A stretch of DNA of 64,000 bases from Styela clava (taxonomy: Eukaryota > Chordata > Ascidiacea > Stolidobranchia > Styelidae). Under the pieces are notes generated by a model. It saw nothing but the letters and a program-made list of their open reading frames with translations. It was not told the origin of the DNA and did no database searches. This document shows, one piece after another, positions 45,976 to 64,000 of this stretch. Location: positions 62,001 to 126,000 of the forward strand of contig NC_135250.1 of NCBI RefSeq assembly GCF_964204865.1, written 5' to 3'. The first letter of the stretch is position 1, and each line of letters begins with the position of its first letter. A program made the position numbers and the translations under genes.

Positions 45976-46071
45976 AGATTTAAAAAAGAATCACTGTCAC
46001 AATTTTGGATATATCTTGATAACGAATACCAATCGCTAAGTAATCGAGCAACCAAACTGTTGTCCGTATTT
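45976..46071 (+). mobile_element. hAT internal fragment inserted in a tRNA copy
   Basis: About 95 bp almost identical to 45310-45405 (KKESLSQFWI to LLSVFS), sitting between the 5' and 3' parts of a tRNA-Gly copy. It has no terminal repeats, so it arrived by recombination or template switching rather than transposition. Confidence 0.7.
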
Positions 46072-46084
46072 TCGGTTCGACGCA
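46072..46084 (+). pseudogene. tRNA-Gly 3' fragment
   Basis: Only the last 13 nt (CGGTTCGACGCA-like) survive after the hAT fragment. A normal spacer follows. Confidence 0.6.
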
Positions 46085-46225
46085 TGTCTCTTAACCTAGT
46101 TTACCTAAATTCTTGTTCAGCTCGTCTATTTGCAGTAACTTTTCAAACTTACAGTTTAATTATTAAATACAAGTTATAACAGCGGGATGAGAATGACATG
46201 AATGGTCCGCGTCGATGGTGTAACC

Positions 46226-46280
46226 GCGTCGATGGTGTAACGGTTAGCATTGTTGCCTTCCAAGCAATAGTTCCGGGTTC
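46226..46280 (+). pseudogene. tRNA-Gly copy truncated at the T loop
   Basis: Positions 1-55 match the consensus, then the sequence jumps into the middle of the next spacer (GTTCGTTTAGC), deleting the T-arm 3' strand and acceptor 3' strand. A 17-nt duplicate of its own 5' end (46209-46225) precedes it. Confidence 0.8.
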
Positions 46281-46381
46281 AGTTCGTTTAGCTTGCCTTA
46301 TTGCAGTAACTTTTCAAACTTACAGTTTAATTATTGAATACAAGTTATTTAACTGTGGGATGAGAATGACATGAGTCGTCC

Positions 46382-46453
46382 GCGTCGATGGTGTAACGGA
46401 TAGCATTGTTGCCTTCCAAGCAATAGTTCCGGGTACGACTCCCGGTCGACGCA
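46382..46453 (+). tRNA. tRNA-Gly(UCC), degenerate full-length copy
   Basis: 72 nt with T19 to A and T54 to A. The second change hits the invariant TTC of the T loop and the B box, so transcription is doubtful. The spacer just after it carries the hAT insertion at 46465. Confidence 0.6.
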
Positions 46454-46464
46454 TGTCTCTTACC

Positions 46465-47768: not shown

Positions 47769-47906
47769 CTCTTACCCCAGTTTACCTAAATCCCAGTCCA
47801 GCTGCCTATTGCAGTAACTTTTCAAATTTACAGTTTAATTAAGTAACAGAAGTTATTTAACAGCGGGATAAGAATGACATGAATCGCCCGCGTCGACGGT
47901 GTAACC

Positions 47907-47978
47907 GCGTCGATGGTGTAACGGTTAGCATTGTTGCCTTCCAAGCAATAATTCCGGGTTCGACTCCCGTTCAACGCA
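47907..47978 (+). tRNA. tRNA-Gly(UCC), degenerate full-length copy
   Basis: Changes at G45 to A, G64 to T and G67 to A, the last two breaking T-stem and acceptor pairs. A partial 5' duplicate (GCGTCGACGGTGTAACC) precedes it at 47890. Confidence 0.6.
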
Positions 47979-48104
47979 TGTCTCTTACCCTAGTTTACCT
48001 AAATTCTCGTTTAGCTTGCCTTATTGCAGTAACTTTTCAAACTTACAGTTTAATTATTAAATACAAGTTATTCAACAGCGGGATGAGAATGACATGAATC
48101 GTCC

Positions 48105-48176
48105 GCGTCGATAGTGTAACAGTTAGCATTGTTGCCTTCCAAGCAATAGTTCAGGGTTCGACTCACAGTCGACGCG
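48105..48176 (+). pseudogene. tRNA-Gly copy at the retroelement junction
   Basis: Six or more changes (G9 to A, G17 to A, C49 to A, C61 to A, G63 to A, A72 to G). Its 3' half plus ten spacer bases recurs on the far side of the non-LTR element. Confidence 0.7.
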
Positions 48177-48259
48177 TGTCTCTTACGTTCTTTTTTTTTT
48201 GGTAGGCCTCAACCCACCGATACTTACCTTTTTATACTTACTTGTTGCAGGGGAGGCTT

Positions 48260-50964
48260 TTAGATGGTCTTTCTTTTTCTGAAAAATAAAAGGTAAAGAT
48301 TAACAGAAAGCCTGGCCTCGACGAAACATTTCCCGCCACATGGGAGGGTTCGGAGAAATGCACCCTGATGCACACTCATTGAACCCTCTACTTCCACAGG
48401 CTCAGAGATCCAGAGGTAAGAGAAGATCTTGCGATCAATATATTTTATGACAGGAGGTGGTATGGGGACCGACCTCGCGCTTAAAAGAACCTGAGACAAG
48501 ATCAAAGAATTGATAACCAAGATCTTGCCGTACCAGGATAATGATCTAGACCGATTAAAATTAATTATCTGTTCGATCTTGGAGACCTTCTCGCTCCAAG
48601 TTATATTAATTTGGTTTTCACCGAAGTAGATTCCAAGGATTTTAATGTGGTCCTTTATGTACCTATGATAGGGAAAAAAAATAGAATCTCCTTCGCCCTA
48701 TCATTAGTACAGAGGATGGAGGTTTTTTCTCTATTGATCCGCTGCCCTGTGGCTAGACGAAAGAGCTGCAAGTTATTGAAAATAGCATCAATCGAGTATG
48801 CGTCCGACACAACAAAAGTTGCGTCGTCCGCATACTGATCCAATTTGTGGGTGAAATTACCAATACGAATACCTTTTATTAATTTATTATTGATTACACA
48901 TCGGCTGAGGGGCTCCACATTGATGGTGTAGAGTAACATACTAAGAGGACACCCTTGACGGATGCCTCTCAGTATGTTAATTTCTTGGGTGAAAGCCCCA
49001 TTTATCTCAATGATGCTGGTAATGCCGGTGTAAATGGATTTTATCAATCTCAAGGCGCTTGGACATAAGTTATTGCTTTCGAGAAGTCTCAAAAGATAAT
49101 TATGATTAACCATGTCAAACGCCCTTGAGATTATCAATGGAAACAATGAAATACGGACTATTAGTATATTTGGCATAATTGAGTGCACTTGTGATATTAT
49201 AATGCACATCAAAGATAGACCGACCCAGAATGGTACTTTTCTGGGTCGGACTGATTATGCCAGAGAAGGCATTTAAAAGGCGCCTCGAAAGAAGTTTTGT
49301 GATGATTTTATAATTGACGTTTAGATTTGAAATCGGACGCCAATTTTTCAAATCTATAGCGTCGGATTTCTTATAAATTAATTTAACTCTTGCTACTTTT
49401 GATGATTCTGGCAGCATGCCAGAAAGTAAAACGTTATTAATTATAATTATGAGTTCTTTTTTGATTAGGGTCCAGAACGCTAAGTAAAATTCCCTTGACA
49501 AGCCGTCGAGACCCGGCGACTTGCCATTGTCCATATTTTTTATTATAGAAAAGACTTCTTCCTCAGTAGTTCCATTCTCAATTTGGCCGTTGTCATCACT
49601 CGATAATTGAGTGGTTTCCATGACTTTTAAAAGTTCATCCTGGGTTGCCACATCAATATCTGATGTGGTTCCCCAGAGATCCTTATAAAAGACATGGACT
49701 ATACTAATTATTTCCTCCGGTTTTTCTTTAATTTGTCCGAATTTATCCTTAAGTTGTGTAATTATGGTGTCCTGATCTCTTTTTTAAGTTTCTGATAGAA
49801 GATTTTGGTGAGCTCTTCACCCTCTTCCATCCATTGAATACGTGCTTTTAATTTGATATACTCTAATTTTTTAGTCTCGTGAAGAAGAAGTTCCTTTCTT
49901 GAATTTAATATTTCCGCATGATGTTGTCCATCTCTAATTAAAAAACCCGGATGGTCCTTTTTCTTTCTATGTAGATCTGCTTTATAGATGGAAAAAGCAA
50001 TGCTACTCTTTTTTAATACTATTTTTAGTGAAATCCCACCAATCTTGAATATATGAAAATTCTTCCATGCGGTGAACAAGATTTTTATAATTATTAATTA
50101 TTATTTCCCGATATTCTGGATCACTATACAGAGAGGTGTTATTTCTCCAGGCACCCTTGCCCCATCTAATCTTCGTTGAAGATTTCGGTCTAGCCTTTCC
50201 ATCCACCTTTTTCAAGGTGGATTTCAAGAGTAGGGCTGGAGCAAGGGTGTGATCTGAAGCTGTATTTATTATATGATTGATATCTTTCACACAGGCCGCG
50301 TAGTGATCGGAGATATAAAATCGATCAATCCTACGCGCCTGTGTATCTACTTTGCAGGTATATACCTAACCAGCCGGATGTTTTTGGCGAAAGATATCAA
50401 TCATACCAAGAGATTTTAAAGAGGATCCAAGTATTTTTTCCGCCTTGGTGAGCCTGAAGTTCTGTTTAATTAGAACATCACATTCATCCAAGACGGCATT
50501 AAAATCCCCTAAAATTATAAGTGGGTCCAGGGGGTCTAGGGTCTGGAACACACCGCACATCCTCACCATGAAGTCAGTCTGGGTACGGCCCGAACCGAAG
50601 GGAAATAAGCATTCATTAAGCATGTAATGCTACTATTGAATAAAAAGTCCAGACGGTCGAGCCTGTATGGAATTAAAACCCTGTACGATAGAATGGTACA
50701 GGGGATGTTATCTTTAACTAGAATTCCAGTCCGAGCTCTGAAATATTTCATCGAGGTGACTTCATGGGGGATGGTACGCGGTTGGTTGAGGTGCGCGGTG
50801 TATCCCAGGTCGGCTGCCCAGGAATCAATCTCATCTTTTTTGCAACAGTGTACTTGTTGCAAGGAAATTATTCCAGGTTGGTGTCTCCGTATCCAGAGAC
50901 CCAACCTGTGTCTATTTGAGTTCAGTCCGTTAACATTGAGTGAAACTAAATTCAAAGTATCCAT
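48260..50964 (-). pseudogene. ORF2: AP endonuclease plus reverse transcriptase, broken
   Basis: Starts at MDTLNLVSLNVNGLNSNRHR (50964). Endonuclease landmarks follow: the usual LQETH-type motif is SLQQVH, so the catalytic Glu appears changed to Gln; IILGDFNAVLDE is intact; ASDHTLAP supplies the SDH motif. Reverse-transcriptase landmarks follow: GKSPGLDGLSREFY, WRPISNLNVNYKI, GIRQGCPLSM and the catalytic QYADD (49021-48830 region). Reading alternates between two frames with breaks near 50600, 50050, 49750, 49180 and 48600, and an in-frame TAG near 50370, so no full protein can be made. The enzyme family nicks target DNA and copies its RNA at the nick. Confidence 0.85.
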
Positions 50965-51314
50965 TAGAGATTTGGGTAATAATTATATATTATGCCGCTC
51001 AATAAATTACGCACAGTTGGTATAGTACGATTATTAGAATGGTTATTGTGGATGTTAATCCACCAGCATAGAAGAGACAGAAAAGAGGGATTATGAAAAC
51101 TCGGAGCTATGGTTTATTATTCACCGGCAGATGGTTCTGAAAAACCCCGGGATTTAGTGGGGGGGTGAGCTGATGACGCGTCCGAAGACGAGCTCTCGCA
51201 TCCCCTCTTCTCGTCCCTGAGAATCGAAGGCTTTTAAATTTTGGAGTAGTCCCAGTCCGGACCCGGCTCTTTGGATTTACGATGGATGCGTATCTTCTCG
51301 CGAAAAGACACGTG

Positions 51315-52521
51315 TTATTCTTCCGAGCACTCTGTAAGTTTGGCTATATTAAGTAAGTCAGCTTCCAGAGAGCTCTCATCATCGTCGCTGTTTTCTTCCA
51401 GGTTAGCCGAGTCCTTTCCAGGACCACTACCATTATTTGAAACCCTATTAATTTTATTTCCCATATTTTCCGACTCTAGAGAGTCGGTAATTTCGTGTAT
51501 CTCAGTCGGGACAGGATGGAAATCAACTCTAACCCGACTGAGAAAATTACCAGTCTTACTAGAAGAGTTCTCCTTATTATAAATATTATTTTCCTTTTCT
51601 ATCCGTACAGGCATTGCTGGAGCACTTGATGAGATCTTGGCGAAGGTGTATTTCGCCTTCCTCATCAAGGTTTTAGAAACAGATTGTACGGGAGATTTAA
51701 TTTGCGGTGGTGCTGCTTCACTAGACTTCCTGCCAGATGGAATGGAGGGGAAGTCGGCGCAGTCCCTCTGCACATGCCCGGCTTTTTTGCACAGGCGGCA
51801 AAAAGGGGGGTTAATGCACTCTCGGGCCAAATGCTCGGTAGCGAAGCAGTTTAAACATGATTTTACATAGAGTTCCGCGGGGAGGTACGTCTTACAGCGC
51901 ATACCGGCTATGTTGATGAAGTCAGGAAAATTATTCCTGTCGAAGTCATCAACAATGGCTTGAATGTAGCCATTATATACCTTGGTATTTTTAAGGTATA
52001 TTCGGTATACGCGGCGTACCTCCCCGAACTTCAGCGAGTCGAGCATGGTGGTAATTTGCTCGATCGTCGCCTCCGTCGGGATACTCCGCACACTAATGCG
52101 CGTGCCTAAACCACGCGACAAAGAAAAATTAATTCGGCCAGATGGGGTATCAAGCTTGTTTCCTATCGTAGATAGGAACTTGTCACGATTTCCCCCATCT
52201 GCCGCCTGGAAGGTGATATTCCAAGTTCCCGACCTAATTGGGACACTCCTTCAACAAGTGACCTAAAGGGTCGACCGACGAAAAAAGTTGGTAGAAAGCG
52301 GCGACAGTGGGGATGTCCTGCGATGTTGTGGCGTCAATTGACTCCCCACGTTGAACTTCGATCCCCTTCACGTTCGCGACCTTCGGAATCGACGCTGCGA
52401 CACTTGAGAATAGTGGTTTGGCTGCCGAAGAAGAAGAGGTCTGCGGGTCAGATGGTCCAGTTGCCGGTCTGCCAGAGACACTCTGACTGCCGAGAGGCAG
52501 GTGTGTCCTGGCAGACATCAA
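51315..52521 (-). pseudogene. ORF1: CCHC zinc-knuckle nucleic-acid-binding protein, broken
   Basis: From ATG 52521 the first 95 codons (S/A/P-rich) run to a stop near 52236. The sequence then continues in another frame through SRGLGTRISVRSIPTEATIE, an RRM-like or hydrophobic region. Two adjacent zinc knuckles follow: CLNCFATEHLAREC and CRLCKKAGHVQRDC (about 51860-51770). A long charged tail ends at 51315 in LTECSEE. One frameshift separates the parts. Tandem CCHC knuckles in ORF1 are typical of L1/Tx1 and related non-LTR elements. Confidence 0.8.
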
Positions 52522-52900
52522 GATCTTTACGAAAAACTATAGAAGAAATGTGGAACCCCAGATGTTATTCAACTAAGAGTTATTCAGGAAACCTACTACA
52601 AATAAACTAACTGAAGGATAATAAAAACGAGCTAGATATTATGGTAGTAGTAGAAATTAGGGCTATTAGCTAACAGAAGTTTATAAACTAACAGAGAAAC
52701 AAACAAAAGCGGTAACGGTTTAATATATAAAAACCGTTACGGAAACGCCGGGGTGGCCTAAAAGAAATTCCCGAAAGGGGAGAGGCCACTCCCAATACAC
52801 CTGGTTCGGAGCGGGCTGGCAAAAGCCGCGGAATGGCAGAAAAGACTACCAGATTCTCCGTGCTGTTGATCAAGGGAGTCAAGCTTACCTTAATCAAAAC

Positions 52901-52935
52901 AGCAATAGTTCCGGGTTCGACTCCGGTTCGACGCG
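52901..52935 (+). pseudogene. tRNA-Gly 3' half beside the retroelement
   Basis: Covers about positions 38-72 with altered CTCCGGTTCGACGCG at the end. It is the right-hand partner of the candidate 45-bp target duplication. Confidence 0.7.
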
Positions 52936-53054
52936 TGTCTCTTACCCTAGTTTACCTAAATTCTCGTTCAGCTTGCCTTATTGCAGTACCTTTTCAAACT
53001 TACAGTTCAATTATTAAATACAAGTTATTTAACAGCGGGATGAGAATGACATGA

Positions 53055-53075
53055 GTTCGACTCCCGGTCGACGCA
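53055..53075 (+). pseudogene. tRNA-Gly 3' fragment
   Basis: Only GTTCGACTCCCGGTCGACGC plus A remains. The 5' two-thirds is deleted, the spacer running directly into the T loop. Confidence 0.75.
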
Positions 53076-53199
53076 TGTCTCTTACCCTAGTTCACTTATA
53101 TCCCAGTCCAGCTGCCTATTGCATCAACTTTTCAGATTTACAGTTTAAATAAGTAACAGAAGTTATTTTACAGAGGGATGAGCATGACGGGAATCGTCC

Positions 53200-53271
53200 G
53201 CGTCGATGGTGTAACGGTTAGCATTGTTGCCTTCCAAGCAATAGTTCCGGGTTCGACTCCCGGTCGACGCA
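53200..53271 (+). tRNA. tRNA-Gly(UCC), consensus
   Basis: First fully intact unit of the array. Exact consensus; spacer A follows, of the short variant ending TACTAGTTAACAG. Confidence 0.93.
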
Positions 53272-53392
53272 TGTCTCTACCCTAGTTTACCTAAATTCTC
53301 GTTCAGTTTGCCTTGTTAGAGTAACTTTTAAAACTTACAGTTTAATTATTAAATACTAGTTAACAGCGGGATGAGAATGACATGCATCGTCC

Positions 53393-53464
53393 GCGTCGAT
53401 GGTGTAACGGTTAGCATTGTTGCCTTCCAAGCAATAGTTCCGGGTTCGACTCCCGGTCGACGCA
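53393..53464 (+). tRNA. tRNA-Gly(UCC), consensus
   Basis: Exact consensus; spacer C follows, whose oligo-T run is TTTTT. Confidence 0.93.
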
Positions 53465-53588
53465 TGTCTCTTATCCTAGTTTACCAAAATCCCAGTCCAG
53501 CTGGATATTGCAGTAACTTTTTAGATTTACAGTTTAAATAAGTAACAGAAGTTATTTAACTGCGGGATGAGAATGACGTGAATCGTCC

Positions 53589-53644
53589 GCGACGATGGTG
53601 TAACAGTTAGCATTGTTGCCTTCCAAGCAATAGTAATCCAAGCA
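53589..53644 (+). pseudogene. T-arm-less tRNA-Gly, 56 nt
   Basis: Acceptor GCGACGA; D and anticodon arms intact apart from G17 to A. After AAGCAATAG the T arm is replaced by TAATCCAAGCA. No B box. Spacer F follows. Confidence 0.85.
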
Positions 53645-53768
53645 TGTCTCTTACCCAAGTTTACCTAAACCCCAGTCCAGCTGTCTATTGCATTTACTTT
53701 TCAGACTTACAGTTTAAATAAGTAACAGAAGTTATTTCACAGAGGGATGAGCATGACGGGAATCGTCC

Positions 53769-53840
53769 GCGTCGATGGTGTAACGGTTAGCATTGTTGCC
53801 TTCCAAGCAATAGTTCCGGGTTCGACTCCCGGTCGACGCA
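53769..53840 (+). tRNA. tRNA-Gly(UCC), consensus
   Basis: Exact consensus; spacer A follows. Confidence 0.93.
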
Positions 53841-53965
53841 TGTCTCTACCCTATTTTACCTAAATTCTCGTTCAGTTTGCCATGTTAGAGTAACTTTTCA
53901 AACATACAGATTAATTATTAAATACAAGTTATTTAACAGCGGGATGAGAATGACATGAATCGTCA

Positions 53966-54037
53966 TCGTCGATGGTGTAACGGTTAGCATTGTTACCTTC
54001 CAAGCAATAGTTCCGGATTCGACTCCCGTTCGACGCA
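53966..54037 (+). pseudogene. tRNA-Gly(UCC), four changes
   Basis: G1 to T, G30 to A (anticodon stem), G52 to A (T stem and B box) and G64 to T. It is the most altered full-length copy in the core. Spacer D follows. Confidence 0.65.
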
Positions 54038-54154
54038 TGTCTAATGTTATTGTTTACCTAAATTCTAGATTAGCTGTCTCATTGCAACAGCTCGCCTATC
54101 TAAATTAGGAACACACGCTATTTTAGGGCGAGTTCAGAACGACATACATTGTCC

Positions 54155-54226
54155 GCGTCGATGGTGTAACGGTTAGCATTGTTGCCTTCCAAGCAATAGT
54201 TCCGGGTTCGACTCCCGGTCGACGCA
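54155..54226 (+). tRNA. tRNA-Gly(UCC), consensus
   Basis: Exact consensus; upstream flank is the D-family leader (GACATACATTGTCC); spacer B follows. Confidence 0.93.
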
Positions 54227-54350
54227 TGTCTCTTACCCTAGTTCACTTATATCCCAGTCCAGCTGCCTATTGCATCAACTTTTCAGATTTACAGTTTAAA
54301 TAAGTAACAGAAGTTATTTTACAGAGGGATGAGCATGACGGGAATCGTCC

Positions 54351-54422
54351 GCGTCGATGGTGTAACGGTTAGCATTGTTGCCTTCCAAGCAATAGTTCCG
54401 GGTTCGACTCCCGGTCGACGCA
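54351..54422 (+). tRNA. tRNA-Gly(UCC), consensus
   Basis: Exact consensus; spacer A (short variant) follows. Confidence 0.93.
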
Positions 54423-54543
54423 TGTCTCTACCCTAGTTTACCTAAATTCTCGTTCAGTTTGCCTTGTTAGAGTAACTTTTAAAACTTACAGTTTAATTAT
54501 TAAATACTAGTTAACAGCGGGATGAGAATGACATGCATCGTCC

Positions 54544-54615
54544 GCGTCGATGGTGTAACGGTTAGCATTGTTGCCTTCCAAGCAATAGTTCCGGGTTCGA
54601 CTCGCGGTCGACGCA
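54544..54615 (+). tRNA. tRNA-Gly(UCC), C61G variant
   Basis: C61 to G puts a G:G mismatch in the T stem; otherwise consensus. Spacer A follows. Confidence 0.75.
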
Positions 54616-54740
54616 TGTCTCTACCCTAGTTTACCTAAATTCTCGTTCAGTTTGCCTTGTTAGAGTAACTTTTCAAACTTACAGATTAATTATTAAACAC
54701 AAGTTATTTAACAGCGGGATAAGAATGACATGAATCGTCA

Positions 54741-54812
54741 TCGTCGATGGTGTAACCGTTAGCATTGTTGCCTTCCAAGCAATAGTTCCGGGTTCGACTC
54801 CCGGTCGACGCA
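54741..54812 (+). tRNA. tRNA-Gly(UCC), T1/C17 variant
   Basis: G1 to T loses the first acceptor pair, and G17 to C changes the conserved GG of the D loop. Spacer C follows. Confidence 0.65.
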
Positions 54813-54936
54813 TGTCTCTTATCCTAGTTTACCAAAATCCCAGTCCAGCTGGATATTGCAGTAACTTTTTAGATTTACAGTTTAAATAAGTAACAGAAGT
54901 TATTTAACTGCGGGATGAGAATGACGTGAATCGTCC

Positions 54937-54992
54937 GCGACGATGGTGTAACGGTTAGCATTGTTGCCTTCCAAGCAATAGTAATCCAAGCA
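54937..54992 (+). pseudogene. T-arm-less tRNA-Gly, 56 nt
   Basis: Same class as 53589-53644 but with G17 unchanged. Spacer F follows. Confidence 0.85.
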
Positions 54993-55116
54993 TGTCTCTT
55001 ACCCAAGTTTACCTAAACCCCAGTCCAGCTGTCTATTGCATTTACTTTTCAGACTTACAGTTTAATTAAGTAACAGAAGTTATTTCACAGAGGGATGAGC
55101 ATGACTGGAATCGTCC

Positions 55117-55188
55117 GCGTCGATGGTGTAACGGTTAGCATTGTTGCCTTCCAAGCAATAGTTCCGGGTTCGACTCCCGGTCGACGCA
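55117..55188 (+). tRNA. tRNA-Gly(UCC), consensus
   Basis: Exact consensus; leader reads GACTGGAATCGTCC; spacer A follows. Confidence 0.93.
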
Positions 55189-55313
55189 TGTCTCTACCCT
55201 AGTTTACCTAAATTCTCGTTCAGTTTGCCATGTTAGAGTAACTTTTCAAACTTACAGATTAATTATTAAATACAAGTTATTTAACAGCGGGATGAGAATG
55301 ACATGAATCGTCA

Positions 55314-55385
55314 TCGTCGATGGTGTAACGGTTAGCATTGTTGCCTTCCAAGCAATAGTTCCGGATTCGACTCCCGGTCGACGCA
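55314..55385 (+). tRNA. tRNA-Gly(UCC), T1/A52 variant
   Basis: G1 to T and G52 to A, the latter weakening the T stem and B box. Spacer D follows. Confidence 0.65.
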
Positions 55386-55502
55386 TGTCTAATGTTATTG
55401 TTTACCTAAATTCTAGATTAGCTGTCTCATTGCAACAGCTCGCCTATCTAAATTAGGAACACACGCTATTTTAGGGCGAGTTCAGAGCGACATACATTGT
55501 CC

Positions 55503-55574
55503 GCGTCGATGGTGTAACGGTTAGCATTGTTGCCTTCCAAGCAAGAGTTCCGGGTTCGACTCCCGGTCGACGTA
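55503..55574 (+). tRNA. tRNA-Gly(UCC), G43/T71 variant
   Basis: T43 to G loses the outer anticodon-stem wobble, and C71 to T makes a G1:U71 wobble. B box intact. Spacer A follows (CTACTTTACC form). Confidence 0.7.
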
Positions 55575-55699
55575 TGTCTCTACCCTACTTTACCTAAATT
55601 CTCGTTCAGTTTGCCATGTTAGAGTAACTTTTCAAACTTACAGATTAATTATTAAATACAAGTTATTTAACAGCGGGATAAGAATGACATGAATCGTCA

Positions 55700-55771
55700 T
55701 CGTCGATGGTGTAACCGTTAGCATTGTTGCCTTCCAAGCAATAGTTCCGGGTTCGACTCCCGGTCGACGCA
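55700..55771 (+). tRNA. tRNA-Gly(UCC), T1/C17 variant
   Basis: Same changes as 54741-54812; spacer C follows. Confidence 0.65.
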
Positions 55772-55895
55772 TGTCTCTTATCCTAGTTTACCAAAATCCC
55801 AGTCCAGCTGGATATTGCAGTAACTTTTTAGATTTACAGTTTAAATAAGTAACAGAAGTTATTTAACTGCGGGATGAGAATGACGTGAATCGTCC

Positions 55896-55951
55896 GCGAC
55901 GATGGTGTAACGGTTAGCATTGTTGCCTTCCAAGCAATAGTAATCCAAGCA
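55896..55951 (+). pseudogene. T-arm-less tRNA-Gly, 56 nt
   Basis: Identical in the gene region to 54937-54992; spacer F follows. Confidence 0.85.
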
Positions 55952-56075
55952 TGTCTCTTACCCAAGTTTACCTAAACCCCAGTCCAGCTGTCTATTGCAT
56001 TTACTTTTCAGACTTAAAGTTTAAATAAGTAACAGAAGTTATTTCACAGAGGGATGAGCATGACGGGAATCGTCC

Positions 56076-56147
56076 GCGTCGATGGTGTAACGGTTAGCAT
56101 TGTTGCCTTCCAAGCAATAGTTCCGGGTTCGACTCCCGGTCGACGCA
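56076..56147 (+). tRNA. tRNA-Gly(UCC), consensus
   Basis: Exact consensus; spacer A follows, ending in GACATGTTCGTCA. Confidence 0.93.
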
Positions 56148-56271
56148 TGTCTCTACCCTAGTTTACCTAAATTCTCGTTCAGTTTGCCATGTTAGAGTAA
56201 CTTTTCAAACTTACAGATTAATTATTAAATACAAGTTATTTAACAGCGGGATGAGAATGACATGTTCGTCA

Positions 56272-56343
56272 TCGTCGATTGTGTAACGGTTAGCATTGTT
56301 GCCTTCCAAGCAATAGTTCCGGGTTCGACTCCCGGTCGACGCA
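56272..56343 (+). tRNA. tRNA-Gly(UCC), T1/T9 variant
   Basis: G1 to T and G9 to T; T arm and B box intact. Spacer G follows. Confidence 0.65.
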
Positions 56344-56467
56344 TGTCTCTTACCCTAGTTTACTTAAATCCCAGTCCAGCTGCCTATTGCATTTACTTTT
56401 CAGACTTACAGTTTAAATAAGTAACAGAAGTTATTTCACAGAGGGATGAGCATGACGGGAATCATCC

Positions 56468-56533
56468 GCATCGATGGAGTAACGGTTAGCATTGTTGCCT
56501 TCCAAGCAATAGTTCCGACTCCCGGTCGACGCA
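56468..56533 (+). pseudogene. tRNA-Gly with 6-nt T-arm deletion
   Basis: G3 to A, T11 to A, and loss of GGGTTC from the T arm, which removes the B box; 66 nt. Spacer E follows. Confidence 0.85.
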
Positions 56534-56650
56534 TGTCTTTCGTCATTGTTCACCTAATTTCTAGATTAGCTGTTTCATTGCAGCAGCTCGGCAATCTAAA
56601 TTAGCAACACACGATTTTTCACAGTGATTTCAGAGCGACATGCATTGTCC

Positions 56651-56716
56651 GCGTCGATGGTGTAACGGTTAGCATTGTTGCCTTCCCAGCAATAGTTCCG
56701 ACTCCAGGTCGACGCA
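56651..56716 (+). pseudogene. tRNA-Gly with 6-nt T-arm deletion and anticodon-loop change
   Basis: A37 to C beside the anticodon, C62 to A, and the same GGGTTC deletion; 66 nt. Spacer E follows. Confidence 0.85.
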
Positions 56717-56833
56717 TGTCTTTCGTCATTGTTCACCTAATTTCTAGATTAGCTGTTTCATTGCAGCAGCTCGGCAATCTAAATTAGCAACACACGATAT
56801 TTCACAGTGATTTCAGAGCGACATGCATCGTCC

Positions 56834-56905
56834 GCGTCGATGGTGTAACGGTTAGCATTGTTGCCTTCCAAGCAATAGTTCCGGGTTCGACTCCCGGTCG
56901 ACGCA
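56834..56905 (+). tRNA. tRNA-Gly(UCC), consensus
   Basis: Exact consensus; spacer A follows, with CTGAATTC and an extra A in TTAGAAGTAAC. Confidence 0.93.
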
Positions 56906-57031
56906 TGTCTCTACCCTAGTTTACCTGAATTCTCGTTCAGTTTGCCTTGTTAGAAGTAACTTTTCAAACTTACAGTTTAAATATTAAATACAAGTTATTT
57001 AACAGAGGGATGAGAATGACATGAATCGTCC

Positions 57032-57104
57032 GCGTCGATGGTGTAACGGTTAAGCATTGTTGCCTTCCAAGCAATAGTTCCGGATTCGACTCCCGGTCGA
57101 CGCA
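57032..57104 (+). tRNA. tRNA-Gly(UCC), D-loop insertion variant
   Basis: One extra A after position 21 (73 nt) and G52 to A. Spacer D follows. Confidence 0.6.
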
Positions 57105-57221
57105 TGTCTAATGTTATTGTTTACCTAAATTCTAGATTAGCTGTCTCATTGCAACAGCTCGCCTATCTAAATTAGGAACACACGCTATTTTAGGGCGAGT
57201 TCAGAGCGACATACATTGTCC

Positions 57222-57293
57222 GCGTCGATGGTGTAACGGTTAGCATTGTTGCCTTCCAAGCAATAGTTCCGGGTTCGACTCCCGGTCGACGCA
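57222..57293 (+). tRNA. tRNA-Gly(UCC), consensus
   Basis: Exact consensus; spacer B follows. Confidence 0.93.
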
Positions 57294-57417
57294 TGTCTCT
57301 TACCCTAGTTCACTTATATCCCAGTCCAGCTGCCTATTGCATCAAATTTTCAGATTTACAGTTTAAATAAGTAACAGAAGTTATTTTACAGAGGGATGAG
57401 CATGACGGGAATCGTCC

Positions 57418-57489
57418 GCATCGATGGTGTAACGGTTAGCATTGTTGCCTTCCAAGCAATAGTTCCGGATTCGACTCCCGGTCGTCGCA
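57418..57489 (+). tRNA. tRNA-Gly(UCC), A3/A52/T68 variant
   Basis: G3 to A and A68 to T break two acceptor pairs, and G52 to A weakens the T stem. Probably a pseudogene. Spacer D follows, with a CTCGGCAATC hairpin arm. Confidence 0.55.
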
Positions 57490-57606
57490 TGTCTAATGTT
57501 ATTGTTTACCTAAATTCTAGATTAGCTGTCTCATAGCAACAGCTCGGCAATCTAAATTAGCAACACACGATATTTTACGGTGATTTCAGAGCGACATGCA
57601 TCGTCC

Positions 57607-57678
57607 GCGTCGATGGTGTAACGGTTAGCATTGTTGCCTTCCAAGCAATAGTTCCGGGTTCGACTCCCGGTCGACGCA
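57607..57678 (+). tRNA. tRNA-Gly(UCC), consensus
   Basis: Exact consensus; spacer A (short variant, TACAAGTTAACAG) follows. Confidence 0.93.
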
Positions 57679-57799
57679 TGTCTCTACCCTAGTTTACCTA
57701 AATTCTCGTTCAGTTTGCCTTGTTAGAGTAACTTTTAAAACTTACAGTTTAATTATTAAATACAAGTTAACAGCGGGATGAGAATGACATGCATCGTCC

Positions 57800-57871
57800 G
57801 CGTCGATGGTGTAACGGTTAGCATTGTTGCCTTCCAAGCAATAGTTCCGGGTTCGACTCGCGGTCGACGCA
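57800..57871 (+). tRNA. tRNA-Gly(UCC), C61G variant
   Basis: Same single change as 54544-54615, exactly 3256 bp away; spacer A follows. Confidence 0.75.
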
Positions 57872-57996
57872 TGTCTCTACCCTAGTTTACCTAAATTCTC
57901 GTTCAGTTTGCCTTGTTAGAGTAACTTTTCAAACTTACAGATTAATTATTAAACACAAGTTATTTAACAGCGGGATAAGAATGACATGAATCGTCA

Positions 57997-58068
57997 TCGT
58001 CGATGGTGTAACCGTTAGCATTGTTGCCTTCCAAGCAATAGTTCCGGGTTCGACTCCCGGTCGACGCA
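57997..58068 (+). tRNA. tRNA-Gly(UCC), T1/C17 variant
   Basis: Same changes as 54741-54812; spacer C follows. Confidence 0.65.
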
Positions 58069-58192
58069 TGTCTCTTATCCTAGTTTACCAAAATCCCAGT
58101 CCAGCTGGATATTGCAGTAACTTTTTAGATTTACAGTTTAAATAAGTAACAGAAGTTATTTAACTGCGGGATGAGAATGACGTGAATCGTCC

Positions 58193-58248
58193 GCGACGAT
58201 GGTGTAACGGTTAGCATTGTTGCCTTCCAAGCAATAGTAATCCAAGCA
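58193..58248 (+). pseudogene. T-arm-less tRNA-Gly, 56 nt
   Basis: Same class as 54937-54992; spacer F follows. Confidence 0.85.
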
Positions 58249-58372
58249 TGTCTCTTACCCAAGTTTACCTAAACCCCAGTCCAGCTGTCTATTGCATTTA
58301 CTTTTCAGACTTACAGTTTAATTAAGTAACAGAAGTTATTTCACAGAGGGATGAGCATGACTGGAATCGTCC

Positions 58373-58444
58373 GCGTCGATGGTGTAACGGTTAGCATTGT
58401 TGCCTTCCAAGCAATAGTTCCGGGTTCGACTCCCGGTCGACGCA
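58373..58444 (+). tRNA. tRNA-Gly(UCC), consensus
   Basis: Exact consensus; leader GACTGGAATCGTCC as at 55117; spacer A follows. Confidence 0.93.
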
Positions 58445-58569
58445 TGTCTCTACCCTAGTTTACCTAAATTCTCGTTCAGTTTGCCATGTTAGAGTAACTT
58501 TTCAAACTTACAGATTAATTATTAAATACAAGTTATTTAACAGCGGGATGAGAATGACATGAATCGTCA

Positions 58570-58641
58570 TCGTCGATGGTGTAACGGTTAGCATTGTTGC
58601 CTTCCAAGCAATAGTTCCGGATTCGACTCCCGGTCGACGCA
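58570..58641 (+). tRNA. tRNA-Gly(UCC), T1/A52 variant
   Basis: G1 to T and G52 to A; spacer D follows. Confidence 0.65.
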
Positions 58642-58758
58642 TGTCTAATGTTATTGTTTACCTAAATTCTAGATTAGCTGTCTCATTGCAACAGCTCGCC
58701 TATCTAAATTAGGAACACACGCTATTTTAGGGCGAGTTCAGAGCGACATACATTGTCC

Positions 58759-58830
58759 GCGTCGATGGTGTAACGGTTAGCATTGTTGCCTTCCAAGCAA
58801 GAGTTCCGGGTTCGACTGCCGGTCGACGTA
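58759..58830 (+). tRNA. tRNA-Gly(UCC), G43/G60/T71 variant
   Basis: As 55503-55574 plus C60 to G, which breaks the closing T-stem pair. Spacer A follows. Confidence 0.6.
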
Positions 58831-58955
58831 TGTCTCTACCCTAGTTTACCTAAATTCTCGTTCAGTTTGCCATGTTAGAGTAACTTTTCAAACTTACAGA
58901 TTAATTATTAAATACAAGTTATTTAACAGCGGGATGAGAATGACATGAATCGTCA

Positions 58956-59027
58956 TCGTCGATGGTGTAACGGTTAGCATTGTTGCCTTCCAAGCAATAG
59001 TTCCGGATTCGACTCCCGGTCGACGCA
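58956..59027 (+). tRNA. tRNA-Gly(UCC), T1/A52 variant
   Basis: Local duplicate of 58570-58641 at 386 bp; spacer D follows. Confidence 0.65.
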
Positions 59028-59144
59028 TGTCTAATGTTATTGTTTACCTAAATTCTAGATTAGCTGTCTCATTGCAACAGCTCGCCTATCTAAATTAGGA
59101 ACACACGCTATTTTAGGGCGAGTTCAGAGCGACATACATTGTCC

Positions 59145-59216
59145 GCGTCGATGGTGTAACGGTTAGCATTGTTGCCTTCCAAGCAAGAGTTCCGGGTTCG
59201 ACTCCCGGTCGACGTA
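59145..59216 (+). tRNA. tRNA-Gly(UCC), G43/T71 variant
   Basis: Same as 55503-55574 at an offset of 3642 bp; spacer A (CTACTTTACC form) follows. Confidence 0.7.
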
Positions 59217-59341
59217 TGTCTCTACCCTACTTTACCTAAATTCTCGTTCAGTTTGCCATGTTAGAGTAACTTTTCAAACTTACAGATTAATTATTAAATA
59301 CAAGTTATTTAACAGCGGGATAAGAATGACATGAATCGTCA

Positions 59342-59413
59342 TCGTCGATGGTGTAACCGTTAGCATTGTTGCCTTCCAAGCAATAGTTCCGGGTTCGACT
59401 CCCGGTCGACGCA
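59342..59413 (+). tRNA. tRNA-Gly(UCC), T1/C17 variant
   Basis: G1 to T, G17 to C; spacer C follows. Confidence 0.65.
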
Positions 59414-59537
59414 TGTCTCTTATCCTAGTTTACCAAAATCCCAGTCCAGCTGGATATTGCAGTAACTTTTTAGATTTACAGTTTAAATAAGTAACAGAAG
59501 TTATTTAACTGCGGGATGAGAATGACGTGAATCGTCC

Positions 59538-59593
59538 GCGACGATGGTGTAACGGTTAGCATTGTTGCCTTCCAAGCAATAGTAATCCAAGCA
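59538..59593 (+). pseudogene. T-arm-less tRNA-Gly, 56 nt
   Basis: Same class as 54937-54992; spacer F follows. Confidence 0.85.
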
Positions 59594-59717
59594 TGTCTCT
59601 TACCCAAGTTTACCTAAACCCCAGTCCAGCTGTCTATTGCATTTACTTTTCAGACTTACAGTTTAAATAAGTAACAGAAGTTATTTCACAGAGGGATGAG
59701 CATGACGGGAATCGTCC

Positions 59718-59789
59718 GCGTCGATGGTGTAACGGTTAGCATTGTTGCCTTCCAAGCAATAGTTCCGGGTTCGACTCCCGGTCGACGCA
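59718..59789 (+). tRNA. tRNA-Gly(UCC), consensus
   Basis: Exact consensus; spacer A follows. Confidence 0.93.
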
Positions 59790-59913
59790 TGTCTCTACCC
59801 TAGTTTACCTAAATTCTCGTTCAGTTTGCCATGTTAGAGTAACTTTTCAAACTTACAGATTAATTATTAAATACAAGTTATTTAACAGCGGGATGAGAAT
59901 GACATGTTCGTCA

Positions 59914-59985
59914 TCGTCGATTGTGTAACGGTTAGCATTGTTGCCTTCCAAGCAATAGTTCCGGGTTCGACTCCCGGTCGACGCA
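59914..59985 (+). tRNA. tRNA-Gly(UCC), T1/T9 variant
   Basis: G1 to T, G9 to T; spacer G follows. Confidence 0.65.
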
Positions 59986-60109
59986 TGTCTCTTACCCTAG
60001 TTTACTTAAATCCCAGTCCAGCTGCCTATTGCATTTACTTTTCAGACTTACAGTTTAAATAAGTAACAGAAGTTATTTCACAGAGGGATGAGCATGACGG
60101 GAATCATCC

Positions 60110-60175
60110 GCATCGATGGAGTAACGGTTAGCATTGTTGCCTTCCAAGCAATAGTTCCGACTCCCGGTCGACGCA
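60110..60175 (+). pseudogene. tRNA-Gly with 6-nt T-arm deletion
   Basis: Same as 56468-56533; spacer E follows. Confidence 0.85.
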
Positions 60176-60292
60176 TGTCTTTCGTCATTGTTCACCTAAT
60201 TTCTAGATTAGCTGTTTCATTGCAGCAGCTCGGCAATCTAAATTAGCAACACACGATTTTTCACAGTGATTTCAGAGCGACATGCATTGTCC

Positions 60293-60358
60293 GCGTCGAT
60301 GGTGTAACGGTTAGCATTGTTGCCTTCCCAGCAATAGTTCCGACTCCAGGTCGACGCA
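60293..60358 (+). pseudogene. tRNA-Gly with 6-nt T-arm deletion and C37
   Basis: Same as 56651-56716, but spacer E2 follows, which puts TTTT only 5 nt past the gene. Confidence 0.85.
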
Positions 60359-60475
60359 TGTCTTTTGTCATTGTTTACCTAAATTCTAGATTAGCTGTCT
60401 CATTGCAGCAGCTCGGCAATCTAAATTAGCAACACACGATATTTCACAGTGATTTCAGAGCGACATGCATCGTCC

Positions 60476-60547
60476 GCGTCGATGGTGTAACGGTTAGCAT
60501 TGTTGCCTTCCAAGCAATAGTTCCGGGTTCGACTCCCGGTCGACGCA
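60476..60547 (+). tRNA. tRNA-Gly(UCC), consensus
   Basis: Exact consensus; spacer C follows, unlike its 3642-bp partner at 56834, which has spacer A. This marks a recombination point. Confidence 0.93.
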
Positions 60548-60671
60548 TGTCTCTTATCCTAGTTTACCAAAATCCCAGTCCAGCTGGATATTGCAGTAAC
60601 TTTTTAGATTTACAGTTTAAATAAGTAACAGAAGTTATTTAACTGCGGGATGAGAATGACGTGAATCGTCC

Positions 60672-60727
60672 GCGACGATGGTGTAACGGTTAGCATTGTT
60701 GCCTTCCAAGCAATAGTAATCCAAGCA
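60672..60727 (+). pseudogene. T-arm-less tRNA-Gly, 56 nt
   Basis: Same class as 54937-54992; spacer F follows. Confidence 0.85.
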
Positions 60728-60851
60728 TGTCTCTTACCCAAGTTTACCTAAACCCCAGTCCAGCTGTCTATTGCATTTACTTTTCAGACTTACAGTTTAA
60801 ATAAGTAACAGAAGTTATTTCACAGAGGGATGAGCATGACGGGAATCGTCC

Positions 60852-60923
60852 GCGTCGATGGTGTAACGGTTAGCATTGTTGCCTTCCAAGCAATAGTTCC
60901 GGGTTCGACTCCCGGTCGACGCA
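60852..60923 (+). tRNA. tRNA-Gly(UCC), consensus
   Basis: Exact consensus; spacer A follows. Confidence 0.93.
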
Positions 60924-61047
60924 TGTCTCTACCCTAGTTTACCTAAATTCTCGTTCAGTTTGCCATGTTAGAGTAACTTTTCAAACTTACAGATTAATTA
61001 TTAAATACAAGTTATTTAACAGCGGGATGAGAATGACATGTTCGTCA

Positions 61048-61119
61048 TCGTCGATTGTGTAACGGTTAGCATTGTTGCCTTCCAAGCAATAGTTCCGGGT
61101 TCGACTCCCGGTCGACGCA
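61048..61119 (+). tRNA. tRNA-Gly(UCC), T1/T9 variant
   Basis: Duplicate of 59914-59985 at 1134 bp; spacer G follows. Confidence 0.65.
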
Positions 61120-61243
61120 TGTCTCTTACCCTAGTTTACTTAAATCCCAGTCCAGCTGCCTATTGCATTTACTTTTCAGACTTACAGTTTAAATAAGTAA
61201 CAGAAGTTATTTCACAGAGGGATGAGCATGACGGGAATCATCC

Positions 61244-61309
61244 GCATCGATGGAGTAACGGTTAGCATTGTTGCCTTCCAAGCAATAGTTCCGACTCCCG
61301 GTCGACGCA
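61244..61309 (+). pseudogene. tRNA-Gly with 6-nt T-arm deletion
   Basis: Same as 56468-56533; spacer E follows. Confidence 0.85.
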
Positions 61310-61426
61310 TGTCTTTCGTCATTGTTCACCTAATTTCTAGATTAGCTGTTTCATTGCAGCAGCTCGGCAATCTAAATTAGCAACACACGATTTTTCACAG
61401 TGATTTCAGAGCGACATGCATTGTCC

Positions 61427-61492
61427 GCGTCGATGGTGTAACGGTTAGCATTGTTGCCTTCCCAGCAATAGTTCCGACTCCAGGTCGACGCA
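61427..61492 (+). pseudogene. tRNA-Gly with 6-nt T-arm deletion and C37
   Basis: Same as 60293-60358, again with spacer E2 and an adjacent TTTT. Confidence 0.85.
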
Positions 61493-61609
61493 TGTCTTTT
61501 GTCATTGTTTACCTAAATTCTAGATTAGCTGTCTCATTGCAGCAGCTCGGCAATCTAAATTAGCAACACACGATATTTCACAGTGATTTCAGAGCGACAT
61601 GCATCGTCC

Positions 61610-61681
61610 GCGTCGATGGTGTAACGGTTAGCATTGTTGCCTTCCAAGCAATAGTTCCGGGTTCGACTCCCGGTCGACGCA
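61610..61681 (+). tRNA. tRNA-Gly(UCC), consensus
   Basis: Exact consensus; spacer A follows with the CTGAATTC form as at 56834. Confidence 0.93.
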
Positions 61682-61807
61682 TGTCTCTACCCTAGTTTAC
61701 CTGAATTCTCGTTCAGTTTGCCTTGTTAGAAGTAACTTTTCAAACTTACAGTTTAAATATTAAATACAAGTTATTTAACAGAGGGATGAGAATGACATGA
61801 ATCGTCC

Positions 61808-61880
61808 GCGTCGATGGTGTAACGGTTAAGCATTGTTGCCTTCCAAGCAATAGTTCCGGATTCGACTCCCGGTCGACGCA
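61808..61880 (+). tRNA. tRNA-Gly(UCC), D-loop insertion variant
   Basis: Same 73-nt form as 57032-57104, offset 4776 bp; spacer D follows. Confidence 0.6.
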
Positions 61881-61997
61881 TGTCTAATGTTATTGTTTAC
61901 CTAAATTCTAGATTAGCTGTCTCATTGCAACAGCTCGCCTATCTAAATTAGGAACACACGCTATTTTAGGGCGAGTTCAGAGCGACATACATTGTCC

Positions 61998-62069
61998 GCG
62001 TCGATGGTGTAACGGTTAGCATTGTTGCCTTCCAAGCAATAGTTCCGGGTTCGACTCCCGGTCGACGCA
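61998..62069 (+). tRNA. tRNA-Gly(UCC), consensus
   Basis: Exact consensus; spacer B follows. Confidence 0.93.
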
Positions 62070-62193
62070 TGTCTCTTACCCTAGTTCACTTATATCCCAG
62101 TCCAGCTGCCTATTGCATCAACTTTTCAGATTTACAGTTTAAATAAGTAACAGAAGTTATTTTACAGAGGGATGAGCATGACGGGAATCGTCC

Positions 62194-62265
62194 GCATCGA
62201 TGGTGTAACGGTTAGCATTGTTGCCTTCCAAGCAATAGTTCCGGATTCGACTCCCGGTCGTCGCA
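62194..62265 (+). tRNA. tRNA-Gly(UCC), A3/A52/T68 variant
   Basis: Same three changes as 57418-57489; spacer D (CTCGGCAATC form) follows. Confidence 0.55.
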
Positions 62266-62382
62266 TGTCTAATGTTATTGTTTACCTAAATTCTAGATTA
62301 GCTGTCTCATAGCAACAGCTCGGCAATCTAAATTAGCAACACACGATATTTTACGGTGATTTCAGAGCGACATACATTGTCC

Positions 62383-62454
62383 GCGTCGATGGTGTAACGG
62401 TTAGCATTGTTGCCTTCCAAGCAATAGTTCCGAGTTCGACTCCCGGTCGACGCA
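62383..62454 (+). tRNA. tRNA-Gly(UCC), A51 variant
   Basis: Single change G51 to A, an A:C mismatch in the T stem and outside the core of the B box. Spacer B follows. Confidence 0.75.
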
Positions 62455-62578
62455 TGTCTCTTACCCTAGTTCACTTATATCCCAGTCCAGCTGCCTATTG
62501 CATCAACTTTTCAGATTTACAGTTTAAATAAGTAACAGAAGTTATTTTACAGAGGGATGAGCATGACGGGAATCGTCC

Positions 62579-62650
62579 GCATCGATGGTGTAACGGTTAG
62601 CATTGTTGCCTTCCAAGCAATAGTTCCGGATTCGACTCCCGGTCGACGCA
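62579..62650 (+). tRNA. tRNA-Gly(UCC), A3/A52 variant
   Basis: G3 to A and G52 to A but A68 normal, unlike 62194-62265; spacer D follows. Confidence 0.6.
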
Positions 62651-62767
62651 TGTCTAATGTTATTGTTTACCTAAATTCTAGATTAGCTGTCTCATTGCAA
62701 CAGCTCGCCTATCTAAATTAGGAACACACGCTATTTTAGGGCGAGTTCAGAGCGACATACATTGTCC

Positions 62768-62839
62768 GCGTCGATGGTGTAACGGTTAGCATTGTTGCCT
62801 TCCAAGCAAGAGTTCCGGGTTCGACTCCCGGTCGACGTA
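62768..62839 (+). tRNA. tRNA-Gly(UCC), G43/T71 variant
   Basis: Same as 59145-59216 at an offset of 3623 bp; spacer A (CTACTTTACC form) follows. Confidence 0.7.
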
Positions 62840-62964
62840 TGTCTCTACCCTACTTTACCTAAATTCTCGTTCAGTTTGCCATGTTAGAGTAACTTTTCAA
62901 ACTTACAGATTAATTATTAAATACAAGTTATTTAACAGCGGGATAAGAATGACATGAATCGTCA

Positions 62965-63036
62965 TCGTCGATGGTGTAACCGTTAGCATTGTTGCCTTCC
63001 AAGCAATAGTTCCGGGTTCGACTCCCGGTCGACGCA
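62965..63036 (+). tRNA. tRNA-Gly(UCC), T1/C17 variant
   Basis: G1 to T, G17 to C; spacer C follows. Confidence 0.65.
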
Positions 63037-63160
63037 TGTCTCTTATCCTAGTTTACCAAAATCCCAGTCCAGCTGGATATTGCAGTAACTTTTTAGATTT
63101 ACAGTTTAAATAAGTAACAGAAGTTATTTAACTGCGGGATGAGAATGACGTGAATCGTCC

Positions 63161-63216
63161 GCGACGATGGTGTAACGGTTAGCATTGTTGCCTTCCAAGC
63201 AATAGTAATCCAAGCA
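63161..63216 (+). pseudogene. T-arm-less tRNA-Gly, 56 nt
   Basis: Seventh copy of this class in the window; spacer F follows. Confidence 0.85.
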
Positions 63217-63340
63217 TGTCTCTTACCCAAGTTTACCTAAACCCCAGTCCAGCTGTCTATTGCATTTACTTTTCAGACTTACAGTTTAAATAAGTAACAG
63301 AAGTTATTTCACAGAGGGATGAGCATGACGGGAATCGTCC

Positions 63341-63412
63341 GCGTCGATGGTGTAACGGTTAGCATTGTTGCCTTCCAAGCAATAGTTCCGGGTTCGACTC
63401 CCGGTCGACGCA
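63341..63412 (+). tRNA. tRNA-Gly(UCC), consensus
   Basis: Exact consensus; last intact copy in the window; spacer A follows. Confidence 0.93.
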
Positions 63413-63536
63413 TGTCTCTACCCTAGTTTACCTAAATTCTCGTTCAGTTTGCCATGTTAGAGTAACTTTTCAAACTTACAGATTAATTATTAAATACAAG
63501 TTATTTAACAGCGGGATGAGAATGACATGTTCGTCA

Positions 63537-63608
63537 TCGTCGATTGTGTAACGGTTAGCATTGTTGCCTTCCAAGCAATAGTTCCGGGTTCGACTCCCGG
63601 TCGACGCA
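63537..63608 (+). tRNA. tRNA-Gly(UCC), T1/T9 variant
   Basis: G1 to T, G9 to T; spacer G follows. Confidence 0.65.
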
Positions 63609-63732
63609 TGTCTCTTACCCTAGTTTACTTAAATCCCAGTCCAGCTGCCTATTGCATTTACTTTTCAGACTTACAGTTTAAATAAGTAACAGAAGTTATT
63701 TCACAGAGGGATGAGCATGACGGGAATCATCC

Positions 63733-63798
63733 GCATCGATGGAGTAACGGTTAGCATTGTTGCCTTCCAAGCAATAGTTCCGACTCCCGGTCGACGCA
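63733..63798 (+). pseudogene. tRNA-Gly with 6-nt T-arm deletion
   Basis: Same as 56468-56533; spacer E follows. Confidence 0.85.
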
Positions 63799-63915
63799 TG
63801 TCTTTCGTCATTGTTCACCTAATTTCTAGATTAGCTGTTTCATTGCAGCAGCTCGGCAATCTAAATTAGCAACACACGATTTTTCACAGTGATTTCAGAG
63901 CGACATGCATTGTCC

Positions 63916-63981
63916 GCGTCGATGGTGTAACGGTTAGCATTGTTGCCTTCCCAGCAATAGTTCCGACTCCAGGTCGACGCA
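63916..63981 (+). pseudogene. tRNA-Gly with 6-nt T-arm deletion and C37
   Basis: Last unit before the window edge; spacer E2 begins after it and is cut at 64000. Confidence 0.85.
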
Positions 63982-64000
63982 TGTCTTTTGTCATTGTTTA

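Follow-up and report, generated by a model that had tools for sequence, protein, structure and literature searches.

A subtelomeric tandem array of tRNA-Gly(UCC) genes in Styela clava, one of a set of tRNA arrays in the genome

Introduction

The transfer RNA (tRNA) genes of animals are commonly regarded as scattered through the genome, and their arrangement in arrays has long been linked to Entamoeba. The subject of this work is a tandem array of tRNA-Gly(UCC) genes in the ascidian Styela clava, encountered in a stretch of 64,000 nucleotides (C1:62001-126000, hereafter the window) of contig C1, which is 32.7 Mb long in an assembly of 376.6 Mb and 379 contigs. Seven matches in the assembly to exons of the fibrillar-collagen domain, which is typical of animals, agree with an animal genome; searches for COX1 and for GFP produced no match, and since the GFP control produced none either, these negatives carry no information. 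The closest described systems share several of its features. In Entamoeba, according to PMC2652664, there are 25 tRNA array types, and the likeness lies in units of one to several tRNA kinds, in separate array types per tRNA and in homogenised copies; further features of that genome are short tandem repeats between the genes and the arraying of almost all tRNA genes, which take up more than 10% of the genome. Tandem arrays of tRNA genes are also reported from Hydractinia echinata and H. symbiolongicarpus, and from Nematostella (PMC11067881). The Hydractinia arrays are similar to the one described here in belonging to an animal, in having tens to hundreds of similar, evenly spaced copies, and in the many tRNA kinds arrayed per genome, whereas our locus differs in its Gly-UCC unit of about 190 bp, in spacers that are up to about 40% apart and in a loss of promoter and terminator that can be traced.

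Other eukaryotes offer looser parallels. Human 1q23.3 carries a tandem tRNA-bearing repeat, again in an animal, for which PMC4041453 describes 9-43 copies of a 7.3-kb unit that contains a CTCF site and several tRNA genes, in contrast to the one-gene units of about 190 bp found here. Plants have pure single-kind head-to-tail tRNA arrays, although the clusters given in PMC12652284 are smaller (27 tRNA-Pro genes in Arabidopsis, 28 tRNA-Ile in maize, up to 110 genes), and one survey finds many independent origins of large tRNA clusters in eukaryotes (PMC2888827). The array form is already known from Hydractinia, Nematostella, Entamoeba, plants and human 1q23.3, while a literature search brought up no such arrays in nemerteans. 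An earlier note on this DNA, made from the sequence alone, had called a single-anticodon array of this size unusual for a metazoan, which is right in general, although tRNA arrays are on record for Hydractinia and Nematostella (PMC11067881).

We consider it about two-thirds probable (0.66) that the locus is a redundant, partly functional tRNA-Gly(UCC) array, which turns over by unequal exchange and belongs to a set of such arrays. The points of specialist interest are its scale and a constraint on the gene that depends on the age of the copies; we found no description of such age-dependent constraint within tRNA arrays in the literature searched, although it may have been published elsewhere.

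Results and Discussion

Extent and composition of the array

Array copies were located by nhmmer, with the commonest 72-mer, a canonical tRNA-Gly(UCC), as query, in the window and its flanks (C1:126001-206000 and C1:1-60000; the gap C1:60001-62000 was left out). This gave 286 tRNA-Gly copies between C1:107928 and C1:174882, all on the plus strand, which comprise 77 canonical genes, 164 full-length variants, 32 copies of 66 nt and 13 truncated ones; part of the T arm is missing from 45 of the 286. Positions 53200-64000 of the window hold 57 head-to-tail plus-strand copies (17 identical, 25 full-length variants, eight of 66 nt and seven truncated), 15 of them without part of the T arm. The earlier note had counted exactly these 57 tandem units, with the same 17 identical, 25 variant and 15 T-arm-deleted copies, and had the array still running at the window edge; it continues from there to C1:174882. 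Its coordinates stand for that part but understate the array, which has degraded copies from 45928 and a total of 286.

Of the 45 tRNA-Gly(TCC) that ARAGORN called in the window, 42 lie at or beyond 53200, and 45 matches to Rfam RF00005 scored above the gathering score there, with 191 matches in C1:126001-176000 (all 150 listed were to RF00005). Tandem Repeats Finder reported a 196-bp period with 53.9 copies at 53642-63965. Over the whole array, ARAGORN called 236 tRNAs: 224 Gly-TCC, seven Gly-CCC, four Arg-TCT and one called as selenocysteine (SeC). The repeated gene therefore has the cloverleaf with a UCC anticodon, above the curated RF00005 score, by which a eukaryotic tRNA-Gly(UCC) gene is recognised, and its 286 copies in one orientation fall among the tens to hundreds of head-to-tail copies that mark an array of the Hydractinia or Entamoeba kind. 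Three features speak against an assembly artefact: the order of spacers differs along the array, insertions are present and similar arrays occur on other contigs.

Telomere repeats, (AACCCT)n, make up roughly the first 1.1 kb of C1, so that the array, which lies about 108-175 kb from them, is subtelomeric. No tRNA was called in C1:1-60000. We rejected the idea that the array replaces the telomere, because C1 has telomere repeats of its own. The C1 subtelomere also contains a 287-bp tandem repeat in two copies (7398-7964 of stretch L009).

Divergence of the gene and of its spacer

We aligned 272 of the 285 intervals between successive matches (spacing 150-215 bp; 13 were omitted) and distinguished spacer family I, with 157 units (types A, B and D), from family II, with 107 (types C and E-I), eight other units standing outside both. 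Over the 272 units, the tRNA had a diversity of 0.049 as compared with 0.240 for the spacer. Between the two families, divergence reached 0.370 in the spacer as against 0.049 in the tRNA, and the tRNA consensus of each family is the canonical gene; the 75 canonical units have 32 distinct spacers.

This difference between gene and spacer depends on how long ago the units separated. In unit pairs whose spacers are less than 5% apart the tRNA differs equally or more, and it lags behind the spacer only beyond about 10%. Fresh copies were free to change, while old lineages retained the gene. The largest block duplication spans 64 units (12.6 kb, 99.87% identity), several nested blocks have a unit order in common, and the outermost copies of the array form their own one-member spacer types, a block pattern that would fit unequal exchange or block duplication.

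Integrity of the anticodon, boxes and T run

Among the 250 copies of 72 nt, 233 have the TCC anticodon and 129 have both the A box and the B box in canonical form, at least one being changed in the other 121. Another anticodon occurs in 12 of the 84 copies with a changed B box versus five of the 166 with an intact one, counts which are not independent, as several copies are block duplicates. The 17 changed anticodons are seven CCC, four TCT (which corresponds to Arg) and six others, and most of these copies also have a changed B box.

A run of four T (T4) lies within 70 nt of the gene in 154 of the 157 family I units, and the B box is intact in 117 of them; the four columns of this run, at 54-57 nt, show zero diversity across all 157. 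In family II we found T4 in 16 of 107 units and the B box in 33. Tests on such counts overstate certainty, as the units are related by descent. Family II is a decayed family, now mostly without the T4 run and the B box.

tRNA-Gly(UCC) genes elsewhere in the genome

A 25-base piece of the tRNA, searched with up to three mismatches, matched 290 places genome-wide versus none for a reversed-pattern control, so that chance is no issue. The earlier note had proposed counting tRNA-Gly(UCC) genes elsewhere, and at least 11 of the 290 matches lie off C1: among the 100 matches listed, eight are on C13 and one each on C4, C17 and C18. The single genes on C17 and C18 are the canonical 72-mer, followed by T4 after 2 nt, and the commonest sequence of the array is thus that of ordinary genes. 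The C4 gene has one mismatch to this 72-mer and seven T at 8 nt, and four of the 11 copies in the C13 cluster are identical to it, interspersed with tRNA-Thr(TGT). This cluster (C13:20567001-20581000) is a looser one, in which units of Gly-TCC and Thr-TGT recur together with Gly copies that are inverted and have diverged further. A tRNA-derived short interspersed nuclear element, which would be expected to insert at scattered places with target duplications and a tail like that of a retrotransposon, was considered and rejected, since the units stand head to tail at one locus and eight of the 11 or more matches off C1 are in one cluster.

Sister arrays of other tRNA kinds

Five search patterns modelled on animal tRNAs, for Gly-GCC, initiator Met, Asp, Ala and Glu, were run, the places listed being the first 100 for each. 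Dense clusters were found with Gly-GCC (406 places, 388 on one strand), initiator Met (259, 258 on one strand), Asp (255, 250 on one strand) and Ala (168, 163 on one strand). The Glu pattern had no match genome-wide, and the sequence used for it may simply not fit. Lys-UUU, first met through the Rfam search, has 282 places on both strands, mainly on C2 and C16 among the matches listed, and Cys-GCA is arrayed too, as seen in a small sample. In samples of similar size, the Asp unit contains Asp alone with a period of about 345 bp, T4 lying 3-6 nt downstream in 13 of 13 copies, and the Lys and Cys units have one tRNA kind each. Results are at hand for seven tRNA kinds, together with the partners Ser, Arg, His and Thr in the samples.

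The Gly-UCC array thus belongs with others whose units carry one to three tRNA kinds, so that the arraying of several kinds, a further mark of the Hydractinia and Entamoeba arrays, is found here as well. A high demand for tRNA-Gly, as for collagen or silk, which the earlier note had offered as a reason for the array form, was rejected on the same grounds: initiator Met, Asp, Ala, Lys and Cys are arrayed too.

The sister arrays also bear on a possible chromatin role, another of the options between which the earlier note had made no choice, in which the array would act as a boundary beside the telomere, bound by RNA polymerase III (Pol III) and TFIIIC, with its tRNA output incidental. The subtelomeric site would suit such a boundary, and a human tRNA tandem repeat has been implicated as one in the account of PMC4041453. 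The Lys and Cys arrays, however, are far from contig ends (at 15.9 of 31.3 Mb on C2 and 6.9 of 23.5 Mb on C10), which weakens the telomere version, and family II, with 107 of the 272 units, is mostly without the B box. We regard this role as very improbable.

Some arrays have a more complex make-up. At C3:23515001-23521000 there are mixed units of Ser-TGA, Gly-GCC and Arg-TCT (24 ARAGORN calls in 6 kb). At C4:22680001-22686000 an initiator-Met gene is followed about 4 nt on by tRNA-His(GTG), in some cases called as Tyr, and the first T4 often comes only past the second gene; from their sequence, these pairs look like tandem two-gene Pol III units. Separately, in a number of small contigs (C154, C191, C296, C98, C216, C318 and others; stretches L046 and L047) tRNAs with high scores recur at intervals of about 45 kb. 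In the L046 sample, seven tRNAs stood close together and there were short open reading frames (ORFs) of bacterial type, but matches to phage records were confined to tRNA-like pieces; these contigs may represent a co-sequenced element, similar to a phage or plasmid, that was read round more than once.

Selection, passenger sequence or gene conversion

Several observations weigh against a partly functional array that is kept by selection. In six recent block pairs, which overlap in part, 23 of 10770 tRNA sites (0.214%) differ versus 40 of 18801 spacer sites (0.213%; Fisher p = 1), and the ratio of tRNA to spacer diversity is 0.95 in the Asp and 1.16 in the Lys array samples, in which spacers differ little. 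There is no T4 directly 3' of the array genes: its median distance is 55 nt and exceeds 70 nt in 88 of 265 copies, and it is found at 10 nt or less in seven of the 265 as compared with 2 nt at the single C17 and C18 genes. Furthermore, the T4 of family I shares its invariance with two other four-column windows among 121, and 54 of the 124 spacer columns of this family are invariant. Several tRNA variants are found with more than one spacer type, and the single and clustered genes elsewhere could alone supply the tRNA.

Much of this would be expected if the array were an inert satellite that arose from a tRNA unit, was propagated by unequal exchange and now carries its tRNA part as a passenger, while dispersed genes do the work. 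Fresh duplicates and the Asp and Lys samples are without constraint, many copies lack part of the T arm or have other changes, terminators are distant from the gene, and canonical genes are present on C13, C17 and C18. The earlier note had raised this possibility, and it suits the recent copies and the one decayed spacer family. It does not suit the deep pattern, as families 37% apart in the spacer share the tRNA within 5%, both with a canonical consensus, and the T run of family I never varies; moreover, the Cys array sample, with more diverged spacers, has a tRNA/spacer ratio of 0.13. We consider an inert satellite unlikely.

Another way to keep the tRNA uniform would be gene conversion in tracts of about gene length, with the single genes included as donors and no functional selection. 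Variants such as G17T (spacer types A and B) and T28C (types F, C and B), which stand beside two or three spacer types, could be traces of such tracts. Nevertheless, most of the common variants are each confined to a single spacer type, recent duplicates show no greater likeness in tRNA than in spacer sequence, and tracts confined to the tRNA do not account for the invariant T4 of family I outside it. Gene conversion as the cause thus appears quite unlikely, and the gene most likely owes its preservation to selection that acts on the whole array.

Turnover and significance

In the redundant, partly functional array that we favour, unequal crossing-over and block duplication would continually add and remove units. 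A fresh copy, being one among many, would drift without measurable constraint, and in the long term only lineages that retain a working gene, with its A box, B box and downstream T run, would persist and seed new blocks; such survival would keep the tRNA canonical though the spacers diverge. Each intact copy would be transcribed singly by Pol III from its own internal promoter, the transcript stopping at the T run, some 54 nt beyond the gene, and its trailer of about that length being trimmed off, steps that we take from established tRNA biology. The product would be an ordinary tRNA-Gly, with GGA and probably also GGG as its codons.

A broader proposal, to which we give somewhat less than even odds, is that most tRNA genes of this genome are kept in arrays like those of ribosomal DNA, with units of one to three tRNA kinds and with rules particular to each array, in which copies are neutral from birth, the gene is preserved through the survival of working blocks and the array is the unit of selection. 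The decayed spacer families would then be the visible dead fraction carried along in the array.

Here a chromosome-scale animal assembly has several tRNA kinds in arrays of hundreds, with spacers that have diverged sufficiently to tell live from dead copies and with constraint seen to emerge only at depth. This opens to testing the question of how highly redundant gene arrays hold on to a functional gene although any one copy is of little consequence, and it is also a caution that tRNA gene counts are no measure of demand in such genomes.

Array edge and inserted elements

The features of the array in the window are collected in Table 1.

Table 1 Features of the tRNA-Gly(UCC) array, in window positions.
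Feature	Position	Strand	Basis and remarks
Degraded left array edge	45928..48187	+	tRNA matches with homologous spacers; nhmmer, direct reading
Left-edge tRNA matches	45928-45975 (partial), 46226-46282 (partial), 46382-46453, 47907-47978, 48105-48175	+	nhmmer; three also by ARAGORN
1.3-kb insertion in array edge	46465..47768	.	inverted ends CAGGGGCGGATTAA / TTAATCCGGCGCTG
Long interspersed nuclear element (LINE; non-long-terminal-repeat retrotransposon) within array	48188..52899	-	boundaries approximate, set by reading
Array restart: piece of a tRNA gene (52900-52934), with two copies of the spacer but no full gene	52900..53199	+	nhmmer; Tandem Repeats Finder, 138-bp period at 52915-53188
Main array body in window: 57 tRNA-Gly(TCC) copies	53200..63981	+	units about 180-198 bp; goes on to C1:174882
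First canonical 72-nt tRNA-Gly(UCC) of body	53200..53271	+	ARAGORN; Rfam 64.2 bits; identical in all 72 nt to the C17 and C18 single genes
TTTT 55 nt past first gene, presumed Pol III terminator of spacer family I	53326..53329	+	sequence

The 1.3-kb insertion is flanked by an 8-bp target duplication, CTCTTACC, at 46457-46464 and 47769-47776, and resembles a non-autonomous element of a class that we take to be hAT-like. The LINE contains a zinc-knuckle ORF (52250-51315; Pfam zf-CCHC), an endonuclease-like piece (50982-50563; Exo_endo_phos, below the curated cut-off) and reverse-transcriptase pieces (49783-48655; Pfam RVT_1), and its reading frames are interrupted. Site-specific insertion appears unlikely, as the two LINEs of the array occupy different points of the unit. 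The second, at C1:about 168.54-174.17 kb, splits an array tRNA gene near the right end and has an A-rich end and a target duplication of about 15 bp.

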